Assembly (NCBI RefSeq): GCF_020164435.1
Contig: NZ_JAIUDQ010000006.1
Span: 1-64,000, forward strand
DNA from: Phyllobacterium lublinensis
Lineage (GTDB): Bacteria; Pseudomonadota; Alphaproteobacteria; Rhizobiales; Rhizobiaceae
Direction: 5' to 3'
Length of the DNA: 64,000 nucleotides
In this document: piece by piece, positions 14,787-31,198 of the stretch
Numbering within the stretch: the first letter of the stretch is position 1
Layout of the letters: every line of letters begins with the position of its first letter
Translations under genes and position numbers: made by a program
Notes under the pieces: generated by a model
The model's input: only the letters and a program-made list of their open reading frames with translations
The model's database searches: none
Told to the model about the DNA's origin: nothing

Positions 14787-14930
14787 CGTTCTAGATATCC
14801 TTTATGTGGTGCCGGAACCTAGCCGTGTTTTCGATATGGCACAATGAGGCGATATTCGGCAGACGCTCTGCGCCGCAGTGCAATTAAGGACCGACGGTCT
14901 GCATCTTGGAAAGAGTGCACGAAAGTTGAT

Positions 14931-15166
14931 ATAGTGATCTTGGAGTGGAGGATGGGCTTTCACCCACCCTCCTTTCCTTATCTGTGAAAATGAACCCGGA
15001 CGGTTATTGACCAGGTCGTCCGGGTTCATTTTCACAATAGGGGTGATGTTAAACGGCGGATACCGCATAGTTCACCTCCAAGTTGAAGGCATGGCTGATG
15101 CCGCAGTTGGAGGAGCCAATCTTCTCCAATTCACCGCTGGCCCGGTAATGCTGCTTTAGCCCTCAA
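14931..15166 (-). ncRNA. Repeated RNA-like element, copy A (unclassified)
   Basis: Seen: this segment and 22395-22634 (opposite strand) are homologous across their whole length. The 17-mer CAACTGCGGCATCAGCC is identical (15093-15109 here). Shared parts in 5' to 3' order are a T-T-G-A-G start, GCCAGCGGTG, the 17-mer, a Shine-Dalgarno-like GAGGTGA, an ATGCGG start (ATG at 15066-15068), then two hairpins. Hairpin 1 is a perfect 19-bp inverted repeat (14984-15002 / 15017-15035) around a loop that contains ATTGACCAG in RNA sense. Hairpin 2 (about 14948-14974) has a GAAAG loop. It sits in the 590-bp gap between pepN and the divergent transporter gene; the rest of that gap shows no gene. It could be a small RNA, a leader of pepN, or a gene for a very short peptide. 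I cannot assign it to a known RNA family. Confidence 0.6.
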
Positions 15167-15376
15167 TCGAGATTCGCGCAGAGTTTCCGGGTTTGTGTCT
15201 GCACGCAACAAACGTCAGGTTGAATGGTCTGGGCCCGTGTCGAATCCGGTTGCGTTCACCCGAATGTTTGCCTCAAAAACGCAACGTGATCGATTAATCT
15301 CTGGCGCGCCTGTCTAAACGGGCCTAAAGATATATCAGTTGAATCTCCACGCCGACCTCCTCAAGGATCCCCGACC

Positions 15377-16360
15377 GTGACTACCATCGTTCACCCGCAG
15401 GATGGTGAACCGCCTGTTGCAGATAAAATGCGTACTACCAATGTCATGCTTGGAATTGGTCTGAAGGTCGCCTCTGTCTGCGTTTTCGTGTGCATGTCGA
15501 GCCTGCTCAAGGCATCGGATGGCGTACCAGCTGGCCAGCTCGTGTTCTTCCGCTCATTCTTCGCCATTTTCCCGGTTATCGCCTTTATTGCGTGGCAGGG
15601 ACAGATGGCGGTGGCGTTCAAGACCAGTGAGCCCTTCAGTCATTTTTGGCGGGGATTTGTCGGGGTCAGCGCGATGAGCCTGACCTTTTTCGGCTTGACG
15701 AAGCTGCCTCTGCCGGAGTCGATCGCAATCAGCTATGCCTCGCCATTGCTGACAGTGGTGTGCAGCGCCATTTTTCTGCGCGAGACCGTGCGGCTGCATC
15801 GCTGGTCGGCGGTATGTTTTGGCCTGATCGGCGTCTTGATTATCCTCTGGCCGCGCCTGTCGTTCTTCACTGGAGAAACAGAATTTGGCGGCGACCAGGC
15901 CATCGGCGCACTGGCCACATTGGGCGGCGCCGCCCTTGCTGCCGTCGCGATGTTGCTGGTCCGCCGGCTTGTCCAGAGTGAACGCACGCCTACCATCGTC
16001 GTATATTTCTCCATTACCTCGAGCTTGATCGCGCTAGTCAGCTTTCCGTTTGGCTGGGTATGGCCGACACCTTTTCAGGCCACCTGTCTGATCATGGCCG
16101 GCATCGCCGGAGGTGTTGCGCAGATCCTGCTCACGGAAAGCTATCGCCACGCGGACATATCGGCCATCGCACCCTTCGAGTATACGTCCATGTTGCTCGG
16201 ACTTGCTCTCGGTTACCTGCTGTTTGGTGACATACCGACGGTAGAGATGATACTGGGGGCAACCATCGTTATCAGTGCCGGGATTTTCATTATCTATCGT
16301 GAACACCAACTGGGTCTCGCCCGCGCAAGAGCGCGCAAGGTGTCGACGCCGCAGGGCTGA
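15377..16360 (+). CDS. DMT-superfamily transporter (EamA domains)
   Basis: 327 residues with ten hydrophobic segments arranged as two EamA repeats (about 25-160 and 175-305), the layout of drug/metabolite transporters in the inner membrane. I chose the GTG at 15377 because AAGGA lies about 9 bases upstream; an ATG 51 bases further in is an alternative. These proteins export amino acids, metabolites or S-adenosylmethionine-like compounds, but the substrate cannot be read from sequence. It converges on the MFS gene with only 3 bp between stops. Confidence 0.9.
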   Translation: MTTIVHPQDGEPPVADKMRTTNVMLGIGLKVASVCVFVCMSSLLKASDGVPAGQLVFFRSFFAIFPVIAFIAWQGQMAVAFKTSEPFSHFWRGFVGVSAMSLTFFGLTKLPLPESIAISYASPLLTVVCSAIFLRETVRLHRWSAVCFGLIGVLIILWPRLSFFTGETEFGGDQAIGALATLGGAALAAVAMLLVRRLVQSERTPTIVVYFSITSSLIALVSFPFGWVWPTPFQATCLIMAGIAGGVAQILLTESYRHADISAIAPFEYTSMLLGLALGYLLFGDIPTVEMILGATIVISAGIFIIYREHQLGLARARARKVSTPQG

Positions 16361-16363
16361 GAG

Positions 16364-17611
16364 CTACTCTTCCTGCGCGGCCTCGCTCAAGGGATGAAGC
16401 TGCAGCGTCTCCGGCGTCTGCGGTCGGTCGTGCGGGCGTATCGCAAAATCGGGACGGGCCGATGGTGCCTGCGATGCGCGGCGCAGGCTGCGCCAGAACG
16501 CGTACGAGCCATAGGCCGCATAGCTGATCGCCATGGTGACGAAGAAGCCGGTGGGGCCATTCAGGTCCATCAGCCGTCCGGCGATCTGCGGTCCGATCAT
16601 GCTACCTACACCATATACAATCAGTAACCCACTGGAAATCTTGACGAATTCACTCGGCTCGGCGAAGTCGTTGGCGTGTGCGACATTGAGCGAATAGATC
16701 GGAAACAGCACCGTTCCGAAGGCAAACATCAGCGTATAGATCACCCATGGCGTCGTCGGTTGCACCATGATCATTGTCAGTGAGATGGCAACACCGCCAA
16801 TCCCGGCAACGACCATTACATAGCGGCGGTCGACGAAGTCCGAGGCGCGACCGATCGGGTACTGGAAGATTGCACCGCCTATCATGGAACTTGCGATCAT
16901 CGTTGCGATGCCGAAAGTCGACAGCCCAATGTCCCTTCCATAAACGGCGGACAGGAAGTTCCAGGCGCCTGCGATGATTCCGGCCAGCAGCGAACCGATC
17001 AGCGCAGCCGGCGATTTGCGATATAGTCCGGGAAGATCGAGCGACACTTGAGTCAATGGGCGCGGTGATTGGGCGTTGGATAGGCCCGTCGGCACCAGCG
17101 CAGAGGCATAGATCAGCGCTCCGATCATGAACAGCACATGCGTAGCGGCGTTGCCGAACGGCAGGATATACTGGCCGACCAGAAGGCCGATCATGGAAAC
17201 GATCATATAGATCGAGAAAACCATCCCGCGGGTCGAATTGGTGACACGTTCGTTCAGCCAGCTCTCGATGACCATATAGCTTCCGGCTAGTGAAAAGCCG
17301 GCCAGCGCCCGGAACAACGTCCAGGCCCAGGGATCGATGATCAATCCGTGCAACAGCATGGACATGCTCAACAGCGTCAGCAGAACGGCGAAAACGCGAA
17401 CATGACCGACGCGGCGCACAAGACGTGGAACGATGATGCAGCCGCCGGTGAAAGCGAGGGCGTATCCCGTGCCGAGCCAGCCGATAGTGGTCGGGGACCA
17501 GCCCTCCATGCCGGCGCGCAGAGGCAACAAGATACCGGCCAGGCCTCCTGCAGTGAGCATCAGGAACGTGCTGGTCAATAATGCCGTGATTGGCAATAGC
17601 TGGCGAAACAT
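16364..17611 (-). CDS. MFS transporter (YcaD-like)
   Basis: 415 residues with twelve predicted membrane segments. The loop motif after TM2 (R-L-V-R-R-V-G-H-V-R) matches the major facilitator pattern G-x-x-x-D-R-x-G-R-R only loosely. The segment G-Y-x-x-x-E-S-W-L-N in the first half resembles the YcaD group. Exporter of unknown substrate in the inner membrane. AGGA lies just before the ATG. It follows the glycosylase gene in the same direction after 117 bp. Confidence 0.88.
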   Translation of the reverse strand: MFRQLLPITALLTSTFLMLTAGGLAGILLPLRAGMEGWSPTTIGWLGTGYALAFTGGCIIVPRLVRRVGHVRVFAVLLTLLSMSMLLHGLIIDPWAWTLFRALAGFSLAGSYMVIESWLNERVTNSTRGMVFSIYMIVSMIGLLVGQYILPFGNAATHVLFMIGALIYASALVPTGLSNAQSPRPLTQVSLDLPGLYRKSPAALIGSLLAGIIAGAWNFLSAVYGRDIGLSTFGIATMIASSMIGGAIFQYPIGRASDFVDRRYVMVVAGIGGVAISLTMIMVQPTTPWVIYTLMFAFGTVLFPIYSLNVAHANDFAEPSEFVKISSGLLIVYGVGSMIGPQIAGRLMDLNGPTGFFVTMAISYAAYGSYAFWRSLRRASQAPSARPDFAIRPHDRPQTPETLQLHPLSEAAQEE

Positions 17612-17728
17612 GCGCGCATCCTGTGTTTCAGATCTGAAACTACAGTTTTCTATTGGCCCGCAAGCCAGCGATTACGACACTGCCATTCCAGTTTTGCGCC
17701 AAGAAAGGCACGAGCCCGAGCGTATGGA

Positions 17729-18610
17729 TCATTCCGTCAATGCACGCAACCGCAATTTGACACTGACGAAATCGCGCCAGGCGAACCGCTTTTGAGCTGA
17801 ATTGCGCAGGAGATAGGCAGGATGAAGTGTCGGCATGACGGGAATTTCAATCCCCGATGCCGTCGTGTGGCTTTTCCAATTACCGCGCAAGCGGAGAATA
17901 CCCTCCGTCGTATCGGTCAACGCCTTGGCTGCCGGTCCACCTAGTGCGACCAGCAGTTTCGGATTGGCAAGCTCGATCTGGCGCTCGAAGAACGGACGGC
18001 AGATTTCGGTTTCGAGTGGCGTCGGCGTCCGGTTGCCGGGCGGGCGCCACGGAATTGTGTTGGCGATATAGACGCTGGAACGGTCAAGACCGATCGCCGC
18101 AAACATGCGATCGAGCAATTGCCCGGAACGGCCGATGAAGGGTACTCCCTCAAGGTCCTCTTCACGACCCGGTGCCTCGCCGACAAACATGATCGATGCA
18201 TGGGGATTCCCGTCGGCGAAAACGAGGTTCTTGGCTGTGAACTTGAGATTGCATCCATCGAATGCGGCCAGCTGCGCGTGCAATTCGTCCAGTGTAGCCG
18301 CGCTCGACGCCAGCTGCCGGGCCATTGCGATCTGGGCATCATCCGGAACCGTGGCCTTGGTCACGACCGGCGGTGCTGGTGGAGCGGATTGCATCCTTTC
18401 GGACGGTGTGGCAGGTGCCTTTTGTGGTGAAGCTGCTAGTGGCGTCGTTGTGCGTTTTGCTTCGACCTGCGAAAAACGGTTGACCGGCACGTCTTCGAGC
18501 GGCGTATCAACGCCCGCCTCGGCATAGAAGTCCAGCAGTTCGCGAAGGTTCGGCAATCTTGAATCCTTAAGAGCTGCATGTGAAGTCGCAAATTGCACGG
18601 GCGATTGCAA
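17729..18610 (-). CDS. Uracil-DNA glycosylase, family 4/5-like
   Basis: 293 residues. The catalytic half (about 115-290) has motif A G-E-A-P-G-R-E-E-D, the loop W-R-P-P-G-N-R-T-P and motif B H-P-A-Y-L-L-R, as in family 4 enzymes that remove uracil from DNA for base-excision repair. An N-terminal extension of about 110 residues is Pro/Ala-rich and probably disordered. Classical family 4 members bind an iron-sulfur cluster through four cysteines, but only two cysteines occur in the whole protein (in D-G-C-N-L-K and E-I-C-R-P-F), so a cluster is unlikely. The start follows the stop of the upstream exported-protein gene by 2 bp, so the two are probably cotranscribed. Confidence 0.85.
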   Translation of the reverse strand: MQSPVQFATSHAALKDSRLPNLRELLDFYAEAGVDTPLEDVPVNRFSQVEAKRTTTPLAASPQKAPATPSERMQSAPPAPPVVTKATVPDDAQIAMARQLASSAATLDELHAQLAAFDGCNLKFTAKNLVFADGNPHASIMFVGEAPGREEDLEGVPFIGRSGQLLDRMFAAIGLDRSSVYIANTIPWRPPGNRTPTPLETEICRPFFERQIELANPKLLVALGGPAAKALTDTTEGILRLRGNWKSHTTASGIEIPVMPTLHPAYLLRNSAQKRFAWRDFVSVKLRLRALTE

Positions 18611-18612
18611 GG

Positions 18613-19224
18613 TCAGGATGATGGAATGCGCGGGTCCTGCACCAGATAAAACTGGCGCTTTGGCGTAAAGTCGGCAACGGGAAATTCAAAAGTCGCGTTC
18701 GCGCGAGGATCGACTTGTCCGCCACGGAAGACCATCCGGTCATAGGGCTCGAAATCGTCGCTGTATTCCGTGAAGCCATTCGAGTGGATCATGCCCGTCT
18801 TGTCCCCAGGCTGGTAGAAGGACAGGCCGTCTCCGTAGTCGCTTGGTACGTGCAATTGTTCCTGGAGCTCGAACTCGAATTCGATCCAAGGATGGCCGCT
18901 GCCATTAATCGCCTGGATACGCAGATAGAACAGGATGCCAACGTCCTCGCTGGGATTGGCTTGCGTGACACGCTCGGTTCGAATCACAAGGGTTGTTGGG
19001 GTCGCGGAGTCGAATTCCTCGACGATCACGATGGGATCGTCGATCGTGCCCTTGCCGCTGATCGAGCGTATCGCGAACCCGCCGAGCTCATCCGAGAAGG
19101 AATAGGGACCTACCGTCCACAGTTCGCGTTCCTCGGCCGCGATCCCCTCTGAAGCGAATACATTGCAAAGCATGCCGATGGTAATCAGGCCGTTGAGCAT
19201 CCAGATCACTCGGGGCAGTCTCAT
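18613..19224 (-). CDS. Exported protein of unknown function
   Basis: 203 residues. A signal peptide (basic start, hydrophobic 8-24, cleavage near I-A-A-E-E) predicts periplasmic or secreted location. The mature part is acidic, rich in beta-prone segments and aromatic residues, and has no Cys. The ATG at 19224 is preferred over an upstream in-frame start at 19272 because it begins a proper signal peptide. Probably cotranscribed with the glycosylase gene 2 bp downstream. I do not recognise the family. Confidence 0.75.
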   Translation of the reverse strand: MRLPRVIWMLNGLITIGMLCNVFASEGIAAEERELWTVGPYSFSDELGGFAIRSISGKGTIDDPIVIVEEFDSATPTTLVIRTERVTQANPSEDVGILFYLRIQAINGSGHPWIEFEFELQEQLHVPSDYGDGLSFYQPGDKTGMIHSNGFTEYSDDFEPYDRMVFRGGQVDPRANATFEFPVADFTPKRQFYLVQDPRIPSS

Positions 19225-19350
19225 CCGGTCTCCATTCGGTTTTTGATGGCCACCAGCAGTCGTACAACGCAACCAAATGCGCTAGCCGGAGTATGAACGA
19301 ATTGTGTAAAGGCGCAACTCTCGGCAGTGTGTCCAAGATCGTTCAAAATA

Positions 19351-19366
19351 TTGACGTTTACGTCAA
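19351..19366. promoter_or_regulatory. Palindromic operator-like site before the ETF oxidoreductase gene
   Basis: TTGACG-TTTA-CGTCAA is a perfect 6-bp inverted repeat, 157 bp upstream of the etfQO start and 127 bp from the start of the divergent exported-protein gene. Its core ACGTTTACGT recurs upstream of two other genes in the window. It resembles the sites I recall for LiuR-type MerR regulators of branched-chain and fatty-acid oxidation. Confidence 0.5.
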
Positions 19367-19522
19367 GGTAAACTATTAAATCTGTCGATCGTCGTAAGAT
19401 GGGGGGCAATTGGCCGCATCTGGAATGCGCAACTCCCGCTGTCATACGGCTATTGTTAGGCTACAAATCGAAAAAACACGGATTCAATCGTGTCTACGGG
19501 GCATGTGGTTCAGGAGGAAATG

Positions 19523-21190
19523 ATGAGCGAGACAAACGAACTTCCAGAGCGCGAGAGCATGGAGTTTGATGTCGTGATCGTGGGTGGAGGACCGGCGGGT
19601 CTTTCGGCTGCCATCAGGCTCAAGCAGATCAATCCAGAGCTCTCCGTGGTCGTTCTGGAAAAGGGCGGCGAAGTCGGCGCGCATATCCTGTCCGGCGCGG
19701 TGGTCGATCCGATCGGCGTCGACAAGCTTTTGCCGGGTTGGCGCGAGGAGGAGGGGCATCCATTCAAGACGCCGGTCACGGCCGACCATTTTCTGGTGCT
19801 CGGCCATTCAGGCTCGATCCGTCTTCCCAACTTCGGCATGCCGCCGCTGATGAACAATCACGGCAACTTCATTGTCTCGCTCGGCAATGTCTGCCGCTGG
19901 CTCGCCACCAAGGCGGAAGAGCTCGGCGTCGAGATCTATCCAGGCTTTGCCGGCTCGGAAGTGCTTTATGACGACAGCGGTTCCGTCATCGGCGTCGCCA
20001 CCGGGGACATGGGCATCGAAAAGGACGGCTCCCATGGACCAGCCTACACACGCGGCATGGCCCTTCTTGGCAAATATGTGCTGATCGCCGAGGGGGCACG
20101 CGGCTCGCTTGCCAAGCAGCTGATCCATACGTTCAAGCTCGATGAGGGCAAGGAACCCGCCAAATATGGTATCGGCTTGAAGGAGCTGTGGCAGGTCGAC
20201 CCGTCCAAGCACAAGCTTGGCCTGGTGCAGCACACCTTTGGCTGGCCGCTCGACATGAAGACGGGCGGTGGTTCGTTCCTCTACCACCTTGAGGACAACA
20301 CCGTCGCTGTCGGTTTCGTCATGCACCTCAACTACAAGAATCCCTACCTTTCGCCGTTCGAGGAATTCCAGCGCTTCAAGACGCATCCATCGATCCGCGG
20401 TACCTTTGAGGGCGGCAAGCGCCTTTCCTACGGAGCGCGTGCGATCACCGAAGGCGGCTGGCAGTCGGTGCCGAAGCTTTCCTTCCCGGGCGGGGCCCTC
20501 ATTGGCTGCTCGGCCGGTTTCGTCAACGTGCCGCGCATCAAGGGTTCGCACAATGCCATGCTCTCCGGCATGCTTGCCGCCGAACATGTGGCTGAGGCCA
20601 TCGCTGCCGGACGGGCCAATGACGAGCTCATCGCCTATGAGAATGCCTGGCGTTCCAGTGAGATTGGCAAGGACCTGAAGCGCGTGCGCAACGTCAAGCC
20701 GATGTGGTCGAAGCTCGGCACTGTCGGCGGTGTTCTCCTCGGCGGGATCGACATGTGGCTCAACACGATCTTCGGCGGCTGGTCCCCATTTGGAACATGG
20801 AAGCACGGCAAGACCGATGCGGCATCGCTCGAGCCCGCCAGCAAGCATTCGCCGATCGCCTATCCGAAACCCGATGGCGTTCTGACCTTCGACCGCTTGT
20901 CCTCGGTGTTCCTGTCCAACACCAACCATGAGGAGAACGAGCCGGTTCACCTGATCGTCAAGGATCCCGCGCTGCAGAAGACGTCAGAGCACGATGTCTA
21001 TGCCGGACCGTCCACCCGCTATTGTCCTGCGGGCGTCTATGAATGGGTGGAAGAAGGCTCGGGCCCCAAGTTCGTGATCAACGCGCAGAATTGCGTTCAC
21101 TGCAAGACCTGCGACATCAAGGATCCCAACCAGAACATCAACTGGGTGCCACCCCAGGGCGGCGAAGGCCCGGTCTATACCAGCATGTGA
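19523..21190 (+). CDS. etfQO: Electron-transfer flavoprotein:ubiquinone oxidoreductase
   Basis: 555 residues. It passes electrons from reduced ETF (fed by acyl-CoA dehydrogenases such as the isovaleryl-CoA dehydrogenase in this window) to ubiquinone at the inner membrane. Seen: an FAD-binding G-G-G-P-A-G near residue 30; the central ubiquinone/membrane part; a C-terminal 4Fe-4S domain with Cys in Y-C-P-A-G-V-Y and C-x-x-C-x-x-C in N-C-V-H-C-K-T-C-D-I-K-D-P. AGGAGG at 19512-19517 fits the second of two adjacent ATGs (19523). A GTG at 19490 is rejected for lack of a ribosome site. The palindrome at 19351 is its likely operator. Confidence 0.97.
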   Translation: MSETNELPERESMEFDVVIVGGGPAGLSAAIRLKQINPELSVVVLEKGGEVGAHILSGAVVDPIGVDKLLPGWREEEGHPFKTPVTADHFLVLGHSGSIRLPNFGMPPLMNNHGNFIVSLGNVCRWLATKAEELGVEIYPGFAGSEVLYDDSGSVIGVATGDMGIEKDGSHGPAYTRGMALLGKYVLIAEGARGSLAKQLIHTFKLDEGKEPAKYGIGLKELWQVDPSKHKLGLVQHTFGWPLDMKTGGGSFLYHLEDNTVAVGFVMHLNYKNPYLSPFEEFQRFKTHPSIRGTFEGGKRLSYGARAITEGGWQSVPKLSFPGGALIGCSAGFVNVPRIKGSHNAMLSGMLAAEHVAEAIAAGRANDELIAYENAWRSSEIGKDLKRVRNVKPMWSKLGTVGGVLLGGIDMWLNTIFGGWSPFGTWKHGKTDAASLEPASKHSPIAYPKPDGVLTFDRLSSVFLSNTNHEENEPVHLIVKDPALQKTSEHDVYAGPSTRYCPAGVYEWVEEGSGPKFVINAQNCVHCKTCDIKDPNQNINWVPPQGGEGPVYTSM

Positions 21191-21198
21191 CAGCACCG

Positions 21199-21215
21199 GC
21201 CCGGCTGTGCCGGGC
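21199..21215 (+). terminator. Terminator hairpin after etfQO
   Basis: A 7-bp perfect stem GCCCGGC-TGT-GCCGGGC follows the stop by 8 bases, then ATCCTT. The convergent phosphatase gene ends 17 bp further on. Confidence 0.6.
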
Positions 21216-21231
21216 ATCCTTGCGACACCAA

Positions 21232-22239
21232 TCAGTCTTTCAGCAGTACTGTCTGCTGATCGGGGCCAACATCATCCATTGCGCCTATGGAAAAACGCAA
21301 AAGCATCGGAACGTGATCAGATCCCGCACGAGGCAGCGTTTCGACCCGCGGATTGACGATCTTGTCCGAGGTCAGGATGTGATCTAGCGGCAGGCCGATG
21401 AACCGCGTCACGATATCCGGCATGCCTATGGCGAACCAGCTTGGACGCAGGCCCTCGACTGACCGCGTCCTGCTCGCTGCCGTGATGTTCTTGACTGTCT
21501 GGCTCCAGGCAGCGGCATTGAAATCACCCGCAATGATCATCGGCCCCTCCAAACGTTCGAAATATTGTTGGAGCGTCTTGACGTTGCGCGGTTGCGAATA
21601 GGGCCAGGGCCAGTCGAGATGAAGCGCTGTGATGATGGCGCTGCGCCCGCCGAAATCAATGCGGGCCAAGCCGATGAGGCTGCCGACACATTGGGGCGTG
21701 GTGCCGAGTGCGAACGGCCGACGTGACAGAATGGCCACGCCGCCGATACGGCTCCGGTTGGGACAGTAGAGCGTGTAGGGATAGCGCGCCTCGATCGCCT
21801 TCAGTCGTGGCCGCCAGTCGTTGGAAACTTCCTGCAAGGTCATGACATCGGGGGCCTCCCGGGCAATCATCCGAATGACTTCGGTCGGCGTGCGATTATT
21901 GTAGCGCAAATTGAGCTGCATCAGCTTGTATTCGGGAAGGCTGGCAGGTGCAGCCGCTGCTGCCTCGGCCTCCGCGGAGGGCGACGGGGAGGGCACGACA
22001 ATGGTTGCAATCGCGGTCAGCGCCAGTACGACCGCCATCAATCCTTCCCGCCATAGACCGAAAAGCATGGCCGGGATTGCGGAGAGGGCCATCAGCACAG
22101 CCAGGTGCAAGCGGAAATGCGCAAAAGCGTCGAGCGCCGGGTGAACTGAGCCGAAAAAACCGAGCACAAGCGGCACCGAAAACAGGATCGGAAGCAGTAC
22201 CGCAGCGAGTTTCAACCAGGAGCGTTTGTCAGTCGTCAT
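21232..22239 (-). CDS. Membrane-anchored endonuclease/exonuclease/phosphatase-family protein
   Basis: 335 residues. Three hydrophobic segments in the first 90 residues anchor it in the inner membrane. The C-terminal part (about 100-325) is an EEP fold with N in L-Q-L-N-L-R-Y-N-N, metal-binding Glu in T-L-Q-E-V, catalytic H in A-L-H-L-D-W-P, G-D-F-N-A and the terminal S-D-H-V-P. The catalytic face probably lies in the periplasm. Family members cleave phosphodiesters in nucleic acids or phosphoinositide-like molecules; the substrate here is unknown. Confidence 0.88.
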   Translation of the reverse strand: MTTDKRSWLKLAAVLLPILFSVPLVLGFFGSVHPALDAFAHFRLHLAVLMALSAIPAMLFGLWREGLMAVVLALTAIATIVVPSPSPSAEAEAAAAAPASLPEYKLMQLNLRYNNRTPTEVIRMIAREAPDVMTLQEVSNDWRPRLKAIEARYPYTLYCPNRSRIGGVAILSRRPFALGTTPQCVGSLIGLARIDFGGRSAIITALHLDWPWPYSQPRNVKTLQQYFERLEGPMIIAGDFNAAAWSQTVKNITAASRTRSVEGLRPSWFAIGMPDIVTRFIGLPLDHILTSDKIVNPRVETLPRAGSDHVPMLLRFSIGAMDDVGPDQQTVLLKD

Positions 22240-22394
22240 GACCTCGCATTAAACCTGCAATTGCGCCGCAATCAAGATGGTGAATTTCAAGGATTTTCAG
22301 GCAGCGGGACAACCCGGCAACTGGCTCGCCCAATAATTTGCAACCCTGTATTCGTTGTCGCGAATGATAACTCGAGCCATGAGTTGGATGGTTT

Positions 22395-22634
22395 TTGAGA
22401 GTAAGAGCAGCAGCACCGAGCCAGCGGTGTAATGGGGGTGATGGGCTCCCCAACTGCGGCATCAGCCTTGCCTTAGAAACATTGAGGTGAGAAATGCGGC
22501 ATTTGCCGTTTAGTATCGCTCTGACGCTAAAAGAACCCGGATCAGCTGGTCAATCTGCATCGGGTTCGATATTCATAATCAGAAAACGAGGGACGGGCGA
22601 AAGCTCGCCCCTCACTCCAAATGGAATATATCAC
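22395..22634 (+). ncRNA. Repeated RNA-like element, copy B (unclassified)
   Basis: Homolog of the minus-strand segment 14931-15166. The identical 17-mer lies at 22451-22467; GAGGTGA at 22484-22490 and ATGCGGCAT at 22494 match copy A. Hairpin 1 keeps the stem ends GAACCCG / CGGGTTC (about 22532-22567) and hairpin 2 is GGGCGA-AAG-CTCGCCC (about 22595-22610). The tail CACTCCA is identical. No gene follows in the same direction: the MarR gene is convergent and ends at 22694. This copy is therefore not a leader of an annotated gene, which favours a stand-alone small RNA or peptide gene. The reading frame from 22494 would give 77 residues, but the frame is not kept between the copies after the first few codons. 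Confidence 0.6.
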
Positions 22635-22693
22635 CTGGTCCTGATTTACCAAGTCGCAGCATGCTCAACTTTCGTTGCATACTGTGGGAGCTA

Positions 22694-23140
22694 TCACAAG
22701 ACCTTCCTCAGGCTGCCCAGTAGTTGATCGTGCTCGCCGGGCCCAAGCTGCTTTTCCAGTTCGCCATGGGTGCTCTTCCAGATCGGGGTGACATCGGTAA
22801 GCAGTCGCATACCCTTCGTTGTCAGGGCCATTAGCCGGCCACGCCTGTCCGCCGGATCGGGCGTGACTGTCACGAGACCCCGGCGTTCCAGCGGCTTGAG
22901 CGCGGCGGTGAGGGTGGTGCGATCCATCGCAAGCAGCGACGCTACGGAGCTGAGATTGGGCGGCTTGGGTCGGTTGAGTGACATCAGCAGCGAAAACTGG
23001 CCATTCGTCAGATCGTATGGGCGCATGGCATCATCAAAACGCCGCGCCAGGGCACGCGCTGCTCGCTGGACGGCAAGGCACATGCAGGCGTCTCGAATAT
23101 GAATGGTGGTTTCGTAAGGCACCGAGATCGTCTTTGACAT
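22694..23140 (-). CDS. MarR-family transcriptional regulator
   Basis: 148 residues. It shows the winged-helix MarR fold: an N-terminal dimerisation helix with C-M-C-L-A-V-Q-R-A-A-R-A-L, a recognition region with A-M-D-R-T-T-L-T-A-A-L-K-P-L-E-R-R-G-L and the wing D-P-A-D-R-R-G-R-L. Cysteines near the N-terminus could sense oxidants or electrophiles, as in other MarR proteins. It is divergent from the VOC gene, and its start codon lies within a long palindrome (23134-23174), so self-repression and control of the VOC gene are likely. Confidence 0.9.
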   Translation of the reverse strand: MSKTISVPYETTIHIRDACMCLAVQRAARALARRFDDAMRPYDLTNGQFSLLMSLNRPKPPNLSSVASLLAMDRTTLTAALKPLERRGLVTVTPDPADRRGRLMALTTKGMRLLTDVTPIWKSTHGELEKQLGPGEHDQLLGSLRKVL

Positions 23141-26729: not shown

Positions 26730-28139
26730 CTAGGCCATGTCGCCGACAAAATGCCAGGCAATACCCGCTAGCGAACAGGCCGCCAGCGTCTGGATCATCC
26801 CCGCATTGAACCGGAAGATGGCTAGGATTGCGGCAACGGTCAGCACGAGTGAGGCGATGTTGATCGACGCCGGAACCGGTATGTCCAGCGTGACCCCAAA
26901 ACCGTACCACTCAATGACTTCGCTAAAGATCACGTGTGTTGCGAACCACACCGCCAGGTTCATGATCACACCCACCACCGCCGCGGTAATGGCCGACATC
27001 GCGCCGGTCAATGCCGGGTTGTTGCGTAGCCTTTCGATGAAAGGCGCGCCCAGGAATATCCAGAGGAAACAGGGAACGAAGGTTACCCACGTCGTCAGGA
27101 TGGAAGCGAGTGTAGCTGCCATCATTGGCGACAGGGGGCCCGGGTCGCGGAATGCGCCAACAAATCCGACGAATTGCACCACCATGATCAATGGCCCGGG
27201 TGTCGTCTCCGCCATGCCGAGTCCGTCGAGCATTTCGCCGGGTCGAAGCCATCCGTAGTGTTCCACCGCCTGTTGTGCCACGTAGGAAAGCACCGCATAG
27301 GCGCCGCCGAATGTCACCATCGCCATCTTGCTGAAGAAAATCCCGATCTGGCTGAAGACGCTGTCAGGGCCCATGAAGACGTAGATCGCGGCAACGGGCG
27401 CCAGCCAAAGAAAAAGCAAAATCCACGATACTTTCAACGACCAGGAAAGGTTGGGGCGGGCATGGGCCGGCGCTTCTTCACCGAGCGCAGAGTCCCGGTC
27501 TGCAAGCCCGGGACGGGAGGCACCATGACCGCCACCGACCTGAAAAAGCGGCGAACCTGCTCTGCCCCCCACATAGCCGACAATAGCCGCTGTCACGATG
27601 ATCAATGGAAACGGCACATGAAAGGCAAAGATGGCGAGGAAGGCCGCAACGGCGATCAGCATCATTGCGTTGTTCTTGAGCGCCCGCTTGCTGATTCGTT
27701 CGACCGCCTGCAGCACGACGGCGAGAACGGCGGCCTTCAGCCCGAAGAACAGGCCTTCGACCAGCCCGACAGTCCCGAACAGGACATAGACGTAGCTCAG
27801 CCCGAGTATCGCCAGAAATCCCGGAAGTACAAACAGGATGCCGGCGGCAAGACCCCCCTTCGTCCGGTGCAGGAGCCAACCGATATAGATGGCCAGTTGC
27901 TGTGCCTCAGGGCCAGGCAACAGCATGCAGTAGTTCAGGGCATGCAGGAACCGGTTCTCGCCGATCCAGCGTTTCTCGTCGACCAGAATGCGGTGCATGA
28001 CAGCGATCTGCCCGGCTGGGCCGCCAAAACTCAGCGAGGCGATGCGCACCCATACGCGCAGTGCCTCGCCGAAGGAAATGCCGTGTTGGCCCCCTGCTAC
28101 GACCGGGTTTCCGGTTTGACGGCTCGCAAGATCGGACAT
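26730..28139 (-). CDS. chrA: Chromate transporter ChrA (two CHR domains)
   Basis: 469 residues with about twelve membrane segments in two homologous CHR halves. Each has the F-G-G motif (S-F-G-G-P-A-G-Q and T-F-G-G-A-Y-A-V-L) and a Pro-Gly signature (L-L-P-G-P-E-A-Q-Q and T-T-P-G-P-L-I-M-V). ChrA exports chromate driven by the proton-motive force. The start at 28139 lies 1 bp after the stop of the rhodanese/ChrB-like gene; the open frame reaches 28217 but that would overlap the neighbour. The two genes form one operon for chromate resistance. Confidence 0.94.
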   Translation of the reverse strand: MSDLASRQTGNPVVAGGQHGISFGEALRVWVRIASLSFGGPAGQIAVMHRILVDEKRWIGENRFLHALNYCMLLPGPEAQQLAIYIGWLLHRTKGGLAAGILFVLPGFLAILGLSYVYVLFGTVGLVEGLFFGLKAAVLAVVLQAVERISKRALKNNAMMLIAVAAFLAIFAFHVPFPLIIVTAAIVGYVGGRAGSPLFQVGGGHGASRPGLADRDSALGEEAPAHARPNLSWSLKVSWILLFLWLAPVAAIYVFMGPDSVFSQIGIFFSKMAMVTFGGAYAVLSYVAQQAVEHYGWLRPGEMLDGLGMAETTPGPLIMVVQFVGFVGAFRDPGPLSPMMAATLASILTTWVTFVPCFLWIFLGAPFIERLRNNPALTGAMSAITAAVVGVIMNLAVWFATHVIFSEVIEWYGFGVTLDIPVPASINIASLVLTVAAILAIFRFNAGMIQTLAACSLAGIAWHFVGDMA

Positions 28140-28140
28140 G

Positions 28141-28959
28141 TTACGCTCCGGATTTCCGGTTGGGCCAGTTGTGTGTTTCCTCCGTGGCATCACGGCACCA
28201 CCGATAGAATGCGTCATATAGCGTCATGCCTGCCTCGAGCTGTTCGAGATCGTCCGCATACATTCGTGACAGACCAAGCGATGCTGCCAGCAGACCCGGC
28301 GCCTCAGGTGCAAGGTCGGGCCGGGCGGTATCGGCTCCCCGGACGATGGTCGCGAGCCTGGATAGCGGGACGGATGTGAGGCCGAATTCTTCGATCATCA
28401 CGTCGAAGGTGCAAAGTTCGCCACGGTGGCTCCAGAACACATTCTCGATATCGAAAGCGGCGCCATTGAACCGATCTGCAACGGCTTCGACTTCGCCCGG
28501 TGTCACGAACAGGAAGACTGCTTCTGGATCCACGAAGCGGCGGATGAGCCACGGGCACGCGATCCTGTCGATCTTCGGGCGTGCACGGGTCACCCAGACT
28601 GTCCGGCCCTTCTGGTCGAGCGCAGGCAGGCGTGATACGGGGACCAGTGGCAGGCTTGCCGCGGCCCAGGCCTCAAATCCTCCATCCAGCGTTTCCGCCG
28701 GTACGCCGTTATAGCGCAAGAGGGCTGCCGTTCCCTCGCTCAGTTTCTTGCCCTGCTGACAGATGATGATTGCGCGTTTGCCCGCAAGCGCTGGCATCCA
28801 GGACTCGATGTCCTGATGGGAACGTCGACGGGCGCCAGGGATCAATTGCGGATCCAGAATGTAATCTGCGTCGATACGGACATCGACAAGAACCGGGCAC
28901 GCGGGTGTCCCCACCAGCCGTGCCAGTTTTTCAGGTGAGATAGTCGTGGTCGAAGACAT
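28141..28959 (-). CDS. Rhodanese domain fused to ChrB-like C-terminal domain
   Basis: 272 residues. The N-terminal rhodanese domain (about 5-115) has the active-site loop C-Q-Q-G-K-K-L-S with its Cys. The C-terminal domain (about 125-265) has W-V-T-R-A-R-P-K-I-D-R-I-A-C-P-W-L-I-R-R-F-V-D, the signature of the chromate-resistance ChrB C-terminal family. The start ATG at 28959 has GGAGGG upstream; an earlier in-frame start at 29031 lacks this. It stands directly before chrA, so it probably senses or handles chromate for the exporter. The wHTH domain of classical ChrB regulators is absent, replaced by the rhodanese. Confidence 0.88.
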   Translation of the reverse strand: MSSTTTISPEKLARLVGTPACPVLVDVRIDADYILDPQLIPGARRRSHQDIESWMPALAGKRAIIICQQGKKLSEGTAALLRYNGVPAETLDGGFEAWAAASLPLVPVSRLPALDQKGRTVWVTRARPKIDRIACPWLIRRFVDPEAVFLFVTPGEVEAVADRFNGAAFDIENVFWSHRGELCTFDVMIEEFGLTSVPLSRLATIVRGADTARPDLAPEAPGLLAASLGLSRMYADDLEQLEAGMTLYDAFYRWCRDATEETHNWPNRKSGA

Positions 28960-29086
28960 GTCGCGTCCCTCCGTTGGTGTCGGTTTGTTGGACGCGATAC
29001 TTGGGCATGACGCCTCGTGGGGAGATCGCAACCCCCATGAACATAAGATTGTCAGGAAACGGAATTATGTCAAGCAAACCCGCGCC

Positions 29087-30744: not shown

Positions 30745-30804
30745 GTGCTCAACGATCCCTCGATACGTCACAGGACGACACGAACGCTGTGCGCGCAGCG
30801 AAAA

Positions 30805-30840
30805 GAGCCCGGACCGGCCGACAAGCGATCGTCCGGGTTC
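30805..30840. terminator. Bidirectional terminator between bla and the DUF2147 gene
   Basis: GAGCCCGGAC and GTCCGGGTTC pair (one G-T) around a 16-nt spacer. TTGTTTGATT follows on the plus strand and CTCTTTTCG on the minus strand. Confidence 0.65.
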
Positions 30841-30850
30841 GATTGTTTGA

Positions 30851-31198
30851 TTATTGACGGGTGAGGCTTTCGCTCTTGCAGATGAGGCCGCCCATGACAC
30901 AACCGGACAATGAAAGTGTGCTGCCGCTGACACTTGCCTTGCCATTATAGGTCTTGCCCTCGTCGAGCTTGTTGACCTTTCCCTTGTAGGCACCATCCTT
31001 GCCCGACATCGAGCCGATGGATTTGCCCTTGTATTCGCCAGTCATGACGGTGCCGCAATAGGTGTCGCCGCCACAGGACGTGTATTGAATGATGGTGCCG
31101 TTCGGCCGCTTCCAGGAACCGACAATGGGCTCTTCGGCCAAGGCAGGGCCCGCCAAAAGAACAAAGCCGGTGCATGCCAGCAACAATATGCGTTTCAT
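30851..31198 (-). CDS. DUF2147-family exported protein
   Basis: 115 residues. A signal peptide ends near A-L-A-E-E, and the mature domain begins with the family pattern I-V-G-S-W-K-R-P-N-G, then C-G-G-D-T-Y-C-G and G-K-T-Y-N-G-K-A, with L-S-L-S-G-C-V near the end. DUF2147 proteins form a small beta-barrel-like, lipocalin-resembling fold in the periplasm; their role is unknown. Two Cys pairs may form disulfides. The repeat TTACG-CAAA-CGTAA lies 36 bp upstream of the start. Confidence 0.88.
   Translation of the reverse strand: MKRILLLACTGFVLLAGPALAEEPIVGSWKRPNGTIIQYTSCGGDTYCGTVMTGEYKGKSIGSMSGKDGAYKGKVNKLDEGKTYNGKASVSGSTLSLSGCVMGGLICKSESLTRQ

Follow-up and report, generated by a model that had tools for sequence, protein, structure and literature searches.

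What kind of element lies twice, about 7 kb apart, in a 64,000-nucleotide stretch of the Phyllobacterium lublinensis genome (contig NZ_JAIUDQ010000006.1, positions 1 to 64,000; hereafter the window)? An earlier note, made from the letters alone, had paired copy A (15166–14931, minus strand) with copy B (22395–22634, plus strand) and proposed a selected RNA of unclassified type. We consider it about 65% probable that the family to which both copies belong is a new locus of type I toxin-antitoxin-like design, whose peptide is cationic and unusual. The open reading frame (ORF), the RNA fold, the paired state of the Shine-Dalgarno site and the signature of an antisense promoter can be read from the aligned sequences, and from these we infer transcription of either strand, termination, repression, toxicity and addiction. 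An ORF of small size that tends to decay, a ribosome site hidden by pairing, an inward-facing promoter, tandem arrays and a spread over plasmids, phages and chromosomes are together what would be expected of a type I layout.

The end-to-end alignment of A and B is borne out: in a BLASTN search of the own genome with A, copy B is recovered at 73% identity (expectation value, E, 4.5e-28), and GCCAGCGGTG, GAGGTGA and ATGCGG each occur in both copies, as the earlier note had claimed; the identical block that it described is also present (CCAACTGCGGCATCAGCC), with a length of 18 bases instead of 17. The same search finds nine further places in the sense of A, 69–76% alike to it (opposite-strand matches, due to the palindromic H5 hairpin, were excluded from the copy count), and a search with B adds two more. 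The covariance model gives 15 matches in this genome, 14 of them at 90 bits or more and one partial at 24 bits, so that "two copies" is an undercount: 14 scattered matches indicate a dispersed multicopy family and not a pair. Thirteen of the 14 copies were examined; the fourteenth (C4:137250–137409, minus strand, 90.1 bits) is shorter. The partial match, at 30801–30857 of the window (24.3 bits on the plus strand at 30801–30844, 16.8 bits in another search), spans only the H5 region and may represent an unrelated hairpin. The limits first given for the element are about right but a little tight, since the conserved unit takes in a dyad on the upstream side and an antisense promoter on the downstream side (A, about 15222–14905; B, about 22341–22652), with the structured RNA at 14927–15167 (minus strand, 234.6 bits) in A and 22394–22633 (plus strand, 192.3 bits) in B. 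Behind copy B there indeed appears to be no gene in the same direction: the next gene-like ORF (22694–23140) is on the opposite strand, and a 110-residue plus-strand frame nested in it (22770–23102), taken from the mechanical ORF list, looks spurious. The view that the element is not only a leader is supported.

The loss of the reading frame between A and B had been taken as a sign of a non-coding RNA; it turns out to be decay in these two copies, while most examined copies keep a frame of about 29 residues, and because both window copies are frameshifted the earlier note saw no reading frame. In the first 40 full-length copies aligned the ORF starts at the same place (ATG in 39, GTG in one), mostly a few bases past GGAGGTGA or a near variant; locus L020 has no Shine-Dalgarno site. 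A family ORF of 24–33 residues is present in 88 of 117 copies under a strict rule that chooses the start via P5 and R/W2, so that conservation at these positions is partly selected, and 11 of the 29 copies failing the rule have, by eye, an open frame of 26–29 residues. A frame-blind DNA pattern gave at least 113 genome stretches, 88 of which contain an ORF of 26–31 residues fitting the family motif (in L248 the motif picked up, beside the true frame, one that is clearly false). A small ORF, far shorter than some 60 codons and preceded by a ribosome site of its own, a strong Shine-Dalgarno sequence, is present in the family, though frameshifted in A and B. Among 81 in-frame copies (1441 pairs), which had been picked for P5 and W19, the ratio of the proportions of nonsynonymous and synonymous differences (pN/pS) is 0.546 in the reading frame as against 0.919 and 1.763 in the shifted frames; the three frames of the opposite strand give 0.991, 1.388 and 0.727. 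At codons 12 and 23 the second position is invariant and the first and third vary, and at codons 10 (Leu) and 25 (Val) variation falls mainly on the third position. The consensus is M(W/R)xxPxSITLxxK(K/R)TRT(S/G)WxxxxRVxF; distant copies from another family of the order (L118, L122, L123 and L126), which fail the strict rule, are still 29 residues long and retain W19 and R24, with the other residues mostly changed. The median net charge of the peptides is +5, and they lack a transmembrane-like stretch. AlphaFold2, run on 44 aligned members, predicts a β-hairpin (strands 6–15 and 18–27) with a mean predicted local distance difference test (pLDDT) score of 76.5 and a predicted template modelling (pTM) score of 0.26, a model in which we place modest confidence. 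Profile searches with 44 peptides against each of Pfam, NCBIfam, PADLOC and PHROGs matched no family with more than one member (best E 0.022), and the PDB sequences yielded no match to the peptide at E up to 1.

That the element is a selected, structured RNA whose stems are kept by compensatory changes, as the earlier note had argued from two copies, is supported by strong covariation over 117. The structure was written by hand on one sequence (L036) and then counted on 117 copies, i.e. model matches in 100 of 175 loci with same-place duplicates and some others omitted. It consists of domain I (H1–H3) and domain II (H4–H6); 86.7% of 7620 cells are paired, compared with 75.8% in shuffled alignments, double changes occur at 54 of the 69 pairs, and the covariation score is 0.349 against 0.159 for shuffled and at most 0.081 for slid versions, the latter being the fairer control, as the alignment was fitted to the covariance model R1, whose 45 pairs partly overlap the counted ones, and kinship of the copies inflates the counts. 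None of 500 shuffles reaches any of five fold measures; a second version, in which H3 is longer and the H2 and H3 loops touch each other, is about as good (one of the five measures reached by 1 of 500 shuffles). The fold of A is strong by itself (z = -8.8, 0 of 200 shuffles as good) and that of B moderate (z = -2.8, 2 of 200), and the two copies form 67 of 70 and 62 of 69 pairs. One stem joins the Shine-Dalgarno site to the 3' end (TTGGAG/CTCCAA in Phyllobacterium, CCGGAG/CTCCGG in the Sinorhizobium plasmid copy L133), and its two outermost pairs show 31 and 34 double changes; this covariation supports a messenger RNA (mRNA) structure over the ribosome site. In copy A the site, TTGGAGGTGA, lies with the start codon (ATG, 15066–15068) at 15066–15081, and its partner, CACTCCAAG, at 14939–14947, both on the minus strand. 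Two loop contacts are predicted besides: H2–H3 (94.4% paired, 22 double changes), and H1–H5 (95.1% paired), in which GCCAG of the H1 loop meets CTGGC of the H5 loop inside the ORF; in the Roseibium plasmid copy L135 the latter has become GCAAG/CTTGC, with the usual tryptophan lost. A short H3 stem (GGC/GCC) was considered in place of the longer H3 and the H2–H3 contact and set aside, its pairing being about equal with fewer double changes; the three share bases and may be alternative states.

The earlier note had missed an inward-facing promoter on the opposite strand. Just downstream of the 3' end this strand carries TTGGAA or TTGAAA, 15–18 bases, and TATATT, a few bases before GGAGTG. Allowing up to 3 mismatches of 12 to TTGGAA/TATATT, the motif is found in 35 of the 38 copies from Phyllobacterium and in 62 of the 78 from elsewhere (97 of 116 in all; shuffles 9.6% and 5.8%), and in 2 of 116 control stretches taken 100 bases further on. 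In A it reads TTGGAA-18-TATAGT (14906–14935, plus strand; 9 of 12 positions of the sigma-70 consensus) and in B TTGGTA-16-TATATT (22625–22652, minus strand), each with one mismatch to the family motif. Read from this side, H5 is followed by a T-rich stretch because codons 13–14 are A-rich: arginine codon 14 is AGA or AGG in 35 of 84 ORFs and CGG in 4 (ORFs from many genomes), while in seven coding sequences of the window, i.e. of one genome, AGA and AGG make up 20 of 256 arginine codons. These A-rich codons point to an antisense terminator inside the ORF, for which H5 is the candidate (A, 14985–15034, read on the plus strand; B, 22533–22567, read on the minus strand). The inward promoter and the T-rich stretch together predict an antisense RNA of about 95 nucleotides, which would start about 7 nucleotides past the -10 box and occupy 14942–15035 (plus strand) in A and 22527–22618 (minus strand) in B. 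On the sense side, the family alignment places a dyad CAAC ... GTTG upstream (A, 15204–15222, minus strand; B, 22341–22359, plus strand), whose TTG is a candidate -35 box. This dyad is common across the candidate -35 of Phyllobacterium sense promoters, and a comparable CAAC ... TTG(G) pattern is seen at several antisense promoters, so a single regulator might act on both.

The covariance-model search of related genomes proposed in the earlier note finds the family widespread. With R1 at E up to 0.001, weak partial matches included, all 20 genomes of the genus Phyllobacterium have 2–15 matches each; 61 of 247 genomes (34 of 109 genera) match at the family level, 9 of 199 at the order level (including the own one and two weak partial matches) and 3 of 289 at the class level (the own one and two weak, partial matches), although searches across more than 40 genomes used stricter filters, under which weak copies can be missed. 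Among the genus matches listed at least 16 tandem arrays can be made out by eye (15 pairs and one triplet, with starts about 350–490 bases apart), and the family-level matches include rows of three and four copies. The at least 113 stretches of the pattern scan of named genomes, 80 of them titled, include Rhizobium, Neorhizobium, Agrobacterium, Aureimonas, Microvirga, Methylobacterium and Chelatococcus; 89 of 100 given to the model match at 45 bits or more, and the remaining 11 (including Pseudomonas, Bacillus, Lachnospiraceae and Bacteroidales) look like chance matches to the pattern. The family is common in root- and plant-associated bacteria, mainly Hyphomicrobiales. A complete copy with an intact 29-residue ORF (L184, 1357–1599, minus strand, 114 bits) is found in Alkalicaulis satelles, which presumably falls outside the order, and likely arrived there by horizontal transfer. 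Whether the copies in the own genome go with a repABC replicon was tested, and the idea was dropped: RepC lies on contigs C43 and C3, whereas 7 of the 14 copies are on C22, where it is absent.

The peptide also occurs in 43 plasmid records (E up to 1). Of the 40 matches listed, 39 have no annotated feature beneath them and one lies in an unannotated record, but plasmid gene tables are incomplete (H12, one of the 39, has a single feature in the whole record). Twelve plasmid stretches were inspected with 3 to 3.5 kb on each side, and in all 11 annotated ones the peptide lies outside the listed genes. Nearby are repC in two stretches and repA in one; a ParB-family gene, an SOS-response-associated peptidase and DUF932 together in one, and DUF932 in another; a gene named psiB in one, a Fic/VbhA pair in one, DUF736 in two, and transposases or an insertion sequence gene in three; in two stretches the nearby genes are only hypothetical or unrelated. 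In Sinorhizobium, Ensifer and Pseudorhizobium plasmids (L133, L293 and L299) adjoining genes of 456 and 999 bases precede the element, and the 456-base gene is called psiB in L299 and DUF3846 in L293. Leading regions of conjugative elements are described, in the accessible part of PMC11541004, as enriched in toxin-antitoxin genes and SOS inhibitors; the likeness of the plasmid neighbours to such regions is suggestive only. Among phages, 16 records match the peptide at E up to 10, and 14 of these matches cover at least 80% of the query; a match in a Myxococcus phage (E 6) is probably due to chance. Four phage stretches that were fetched all carry the full RNA (111–206 bits), one of them twice in tandem. 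They come from the Rhizobium phages RHEph10 and B1VFA, the Ochrobactrum phage POI1126 and a freshwater phage contig, and the full elements lie between annotated phage genes (L304, 2898–3145; L306, 2899–3147; L305, 2896–3141; L303, 2902–3140 and 3302–3542); in the freshwater contig the tandem elements lie between the portal and terminase genes.

A type I-like locus of this kind might work as follows. The sense promoter would yield an mRNA that folds into two domains, with its Shine-Dalgarno site paired to its own 3' end (TTGGAGGTGA with TCACTCCAA) and with the loops of the leader touching one another and the main hairpin within the ORF; given this pairing and these contacts, the full-length mRNA is probably translated poorly. 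The ORF would specify the cationic peptide, about 29 residues long and, in the model, a β-hairpin. The second promoter, just downstream and facing inward, would produce an antisense RNA. Its first bases would be complementary to the segment that pairs with the Shine-Dalgarno site and its last ones to H5, so that it overlaps the mRNA from the middle of the ORF to the 3' end. Pairing of the two RNAs could lead to decay of the mRNA or block its refolding, and once the antisense RNA is exhausted the peptide would be made and the cell harmed or halted. Plasmid and phage copies could thus serve as addiction or competition modules, and in A and B the peptide has been lost by frameshift with the fold and the antisense promoter kept.

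Several observations weigh against this mechanism. The Shine-Dalgarno stem is uneven (79.1% of cells paired, with three inner pairs failing in 27–44 copies), other helices are weak (P2, 68.3%; lower H6, 62.5%; base of upper H5, 64.9%), and the core of the H1–H5 contact is nearly invariant and also constrained by the tryptophan codon. A strict terminator scan (loop of 3–8, at least 5 T in 8) finds none at A or B on either strand, which would leave neither RNA with a textbook end; the H5 loop exceeds the length that this rule permits. Only 6 of the 13 own-genome copies examined have an intact ORF (L021, L022, L023, L025, L028 and L029), so a functional peptide is not required at every copy. Finally, the peptide is not strongly hydrophobic (in 84 peptides, median GRAVY, the grand average of hydropathy, 0.14; top 15-residue mean 1.2). 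Membrane-associated type I toxins are described, in the part of PMC8309996 available, as α-helical and hydrophobic with a transmembrane segment; these features are absent from the family peptide, for which reason we do not place it among them and speak of a locus laid out like a type I system.

Or perhaps the peptide is not a toxin at all? The main rival is a non-toxic small protein under antisense control, whose arginine-rich chain would bind nucleic acid, perhaps its own RNA, as a regulator or a plasmid or phage helper. A cationic peptide without a transmembrane stretch and with a modelled β-hairpin, an elaborate conserved RNA fold, and, on some plasmids, nearby genes labelled psiB, DUF932, SOS-response-associated peptidase or partition protein all agree with such a role; in our judgement, the decay of the ORF in A, B and other copies, the tandem arrays and the distribution over chromosomes, plasmids and phages suit an addiction module better, and we regard the non-toxic alternative as unlikely.

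The frame-broken copies bear on the proposal of the earlier note, a structured trans-acting non-coding RNA in which the ORF would be incidental. In A and B the frame shifts at about codons 12–14, near an A-rich stretch, and the remnants read on to 88 residues in A (14802–15068, minus strand) and 77 in B (22494–22727, plus strand), the ends being computed from the lengths. Other frameshifted copies retain the fold as A and B do (L026, 65 of 68 pairs; L038, 65 of 70; L030, 68 of 70), with 0 to 2 mismatches in the antisense promoter; L020 and L013 show heavier decay. When the flanks of A were compared with those of 28 relative loci, L030 of P. brassicacearum alone matched; this syntenic counterpart is frameshifted too, by a different lesion. 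The two differ by 32 substitutions, 10 at 141 paired and 22 at 98 unpaired positions, and L030 forms 68 of 70 pairs, whereas 5000 random placements of the substitutions leave a mean of 57.7 and a maximum of 65, so the fold was under selection in the A/L030 lineage, at a time that, with the two lesions differing, may lie before or after the loss of the ORF. This persistence of the fold without an intact ORF is what a non-coding RNA would predict, and for A and B alone that identity is quite possible. For the family as a whole we consider it improbable, in view of the frame-specific pN/pS, the variation of third positions at codons whose residue is kept, the length of about 29 residues in most copies and the replacement of ATG by GTG in L035 and L025. 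Under the toxin-antitoxin reading, A and B may act as antitoxin-only copies. One may go further and suppose a new type I-like class, in which one hairpin provides the codons of the β-hairpin, a partner in the tertiary contacts that give the mRNA its shape and, read backwards, the antisense terminator, with frame-broken copies such as A and B serving as stand-alone antitoxin RNAs against related plasmid and phage toxins; we offer this extension tentatively, as something we doubt somewhat more than we believe. A palindromic repeat of the repetitive extragenic palindromic (REP) or miniature inverted-repeat transposable element (MITE) type, spread by transposition and without RNA or peptide function, would fit the multicopy, dispersed occurrence and the rarely shared flanks of A, but the copies within one genome are only 69–76% alike to A and the coding constraint and compensatory base pairs speak so strongly against it that we give it hardly any credence.

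How does the family relate to what is already described? The earlier note could place it in no known family, and Rfam agrees, with no match at gathering score at A or B; the elements of five other loci gave none either (one thiamine pyrophosphate (TPP) riboswitch was found elsewhere). The alphaproteobacterial trans-acting RNAs that had been suggested as a home are not borne out: no such Rfam small RNA family is matched, and the family is mostly peptide-coding. A permissive Rfam search gave only matches below threshold: SorY at B (E 0.0062) scored 24.4 bits where the cut-off is 111, and RsaE at A 21.5 bits where it is 79; both fall well short and are on the opposite strand, and they were put down to chance.

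Hok/Sok loci occur on plasmids and chromosomes, with decayed copies on chromosomes, as in the present family. They share with it a small ORF, a structured mRNA with a hidden ribosome site and an antisense RNA from the opposite strand (PMC4147584, accessible portion). As far as the available description goes, Sok pairs with the mok leader region, whereas the antisense RNA predicted here spans the 3' half. There is also no profile relation to Hok (44 peptides against Pfam), and the family peptide is non-helical in the model. In TisB/IstR-1 a pseudoknot of the TisB mRNA is reportedly important in translation. A pseudoknot of the toxin mRNA likewise matters for translation in TimP/TimR, with covariation support for timP (PMC11228461, in the part at hand). 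Both systems belong to other organisms and no sequence relation to them was found; in the present family one loop contact enters the coding hairpin. The par locus of pAD1 (Fst/Ldr) has convergent promoters, a short peptide (Fst, 33 residues) and a sequestered Shine-Dalgarno site, but its bidirectional terminator is common to both RNAs, whereas the antisense hairpin of the present family is part of the ORF and consists of codons, and Fst is an α-helix where a β-hairpin is modelled here (PMC7472228, likewise the accessible part). The rhizobial small RNAs SmelA075/SmelA099 and SmelB126 are also multicopy on several rhizobial replicons with little microsynteny (PMC3927594, accessible sections). 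SmelA075/SmelA099, with anti-Shine-Dalgarno loop motifs in the same sections, were dropped as a home for that reason; the present family matches no Rfam family. A pair of Sinorhizobium antisense small RNAs, SmelC775/SmelC776, is reportedly named often in a paper on CtrA control. It is completely microsyntenic, unlike the family (again from the accessible sections of PMC3927594), and, having been weighed as a home for it, was set aside on this description.

In the open-licence literature, partly surveyed by title, no report of such a system in Hyphomicrobiales was found. The accessible part of PMC5521070 predicts type I toxins and coding ORFs in small RNAs for a number of species, S. meliloti 1021 among them, and a relative of the family peptide could be among those predictions. 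The gene family is tiny, unannotated and without an Rfam family. If the toxin-antitoxin reading is true, annotation has overlooked a type I-like module that is common in Hyphomicrobiales (Rhizobium, Sinorhizobium, Agrobacterium, Phyllobacterium, Aureimonas, Roseibium). The module would explain a nameless multicopy RNA family, supply a new maintenance or competition element for the plasmids and phages of this order, and add a peptide fold absent from the membrane-associated type I toxins so far as these are described in the available text.

Elsewhere in the window, a chrB-a RNA (RF03078, 78.5 bits) is found at 28957–29041 on the minus strand, upstream of an ORF in the same direction (26730–28217), which seems to encode a chromate transporter.

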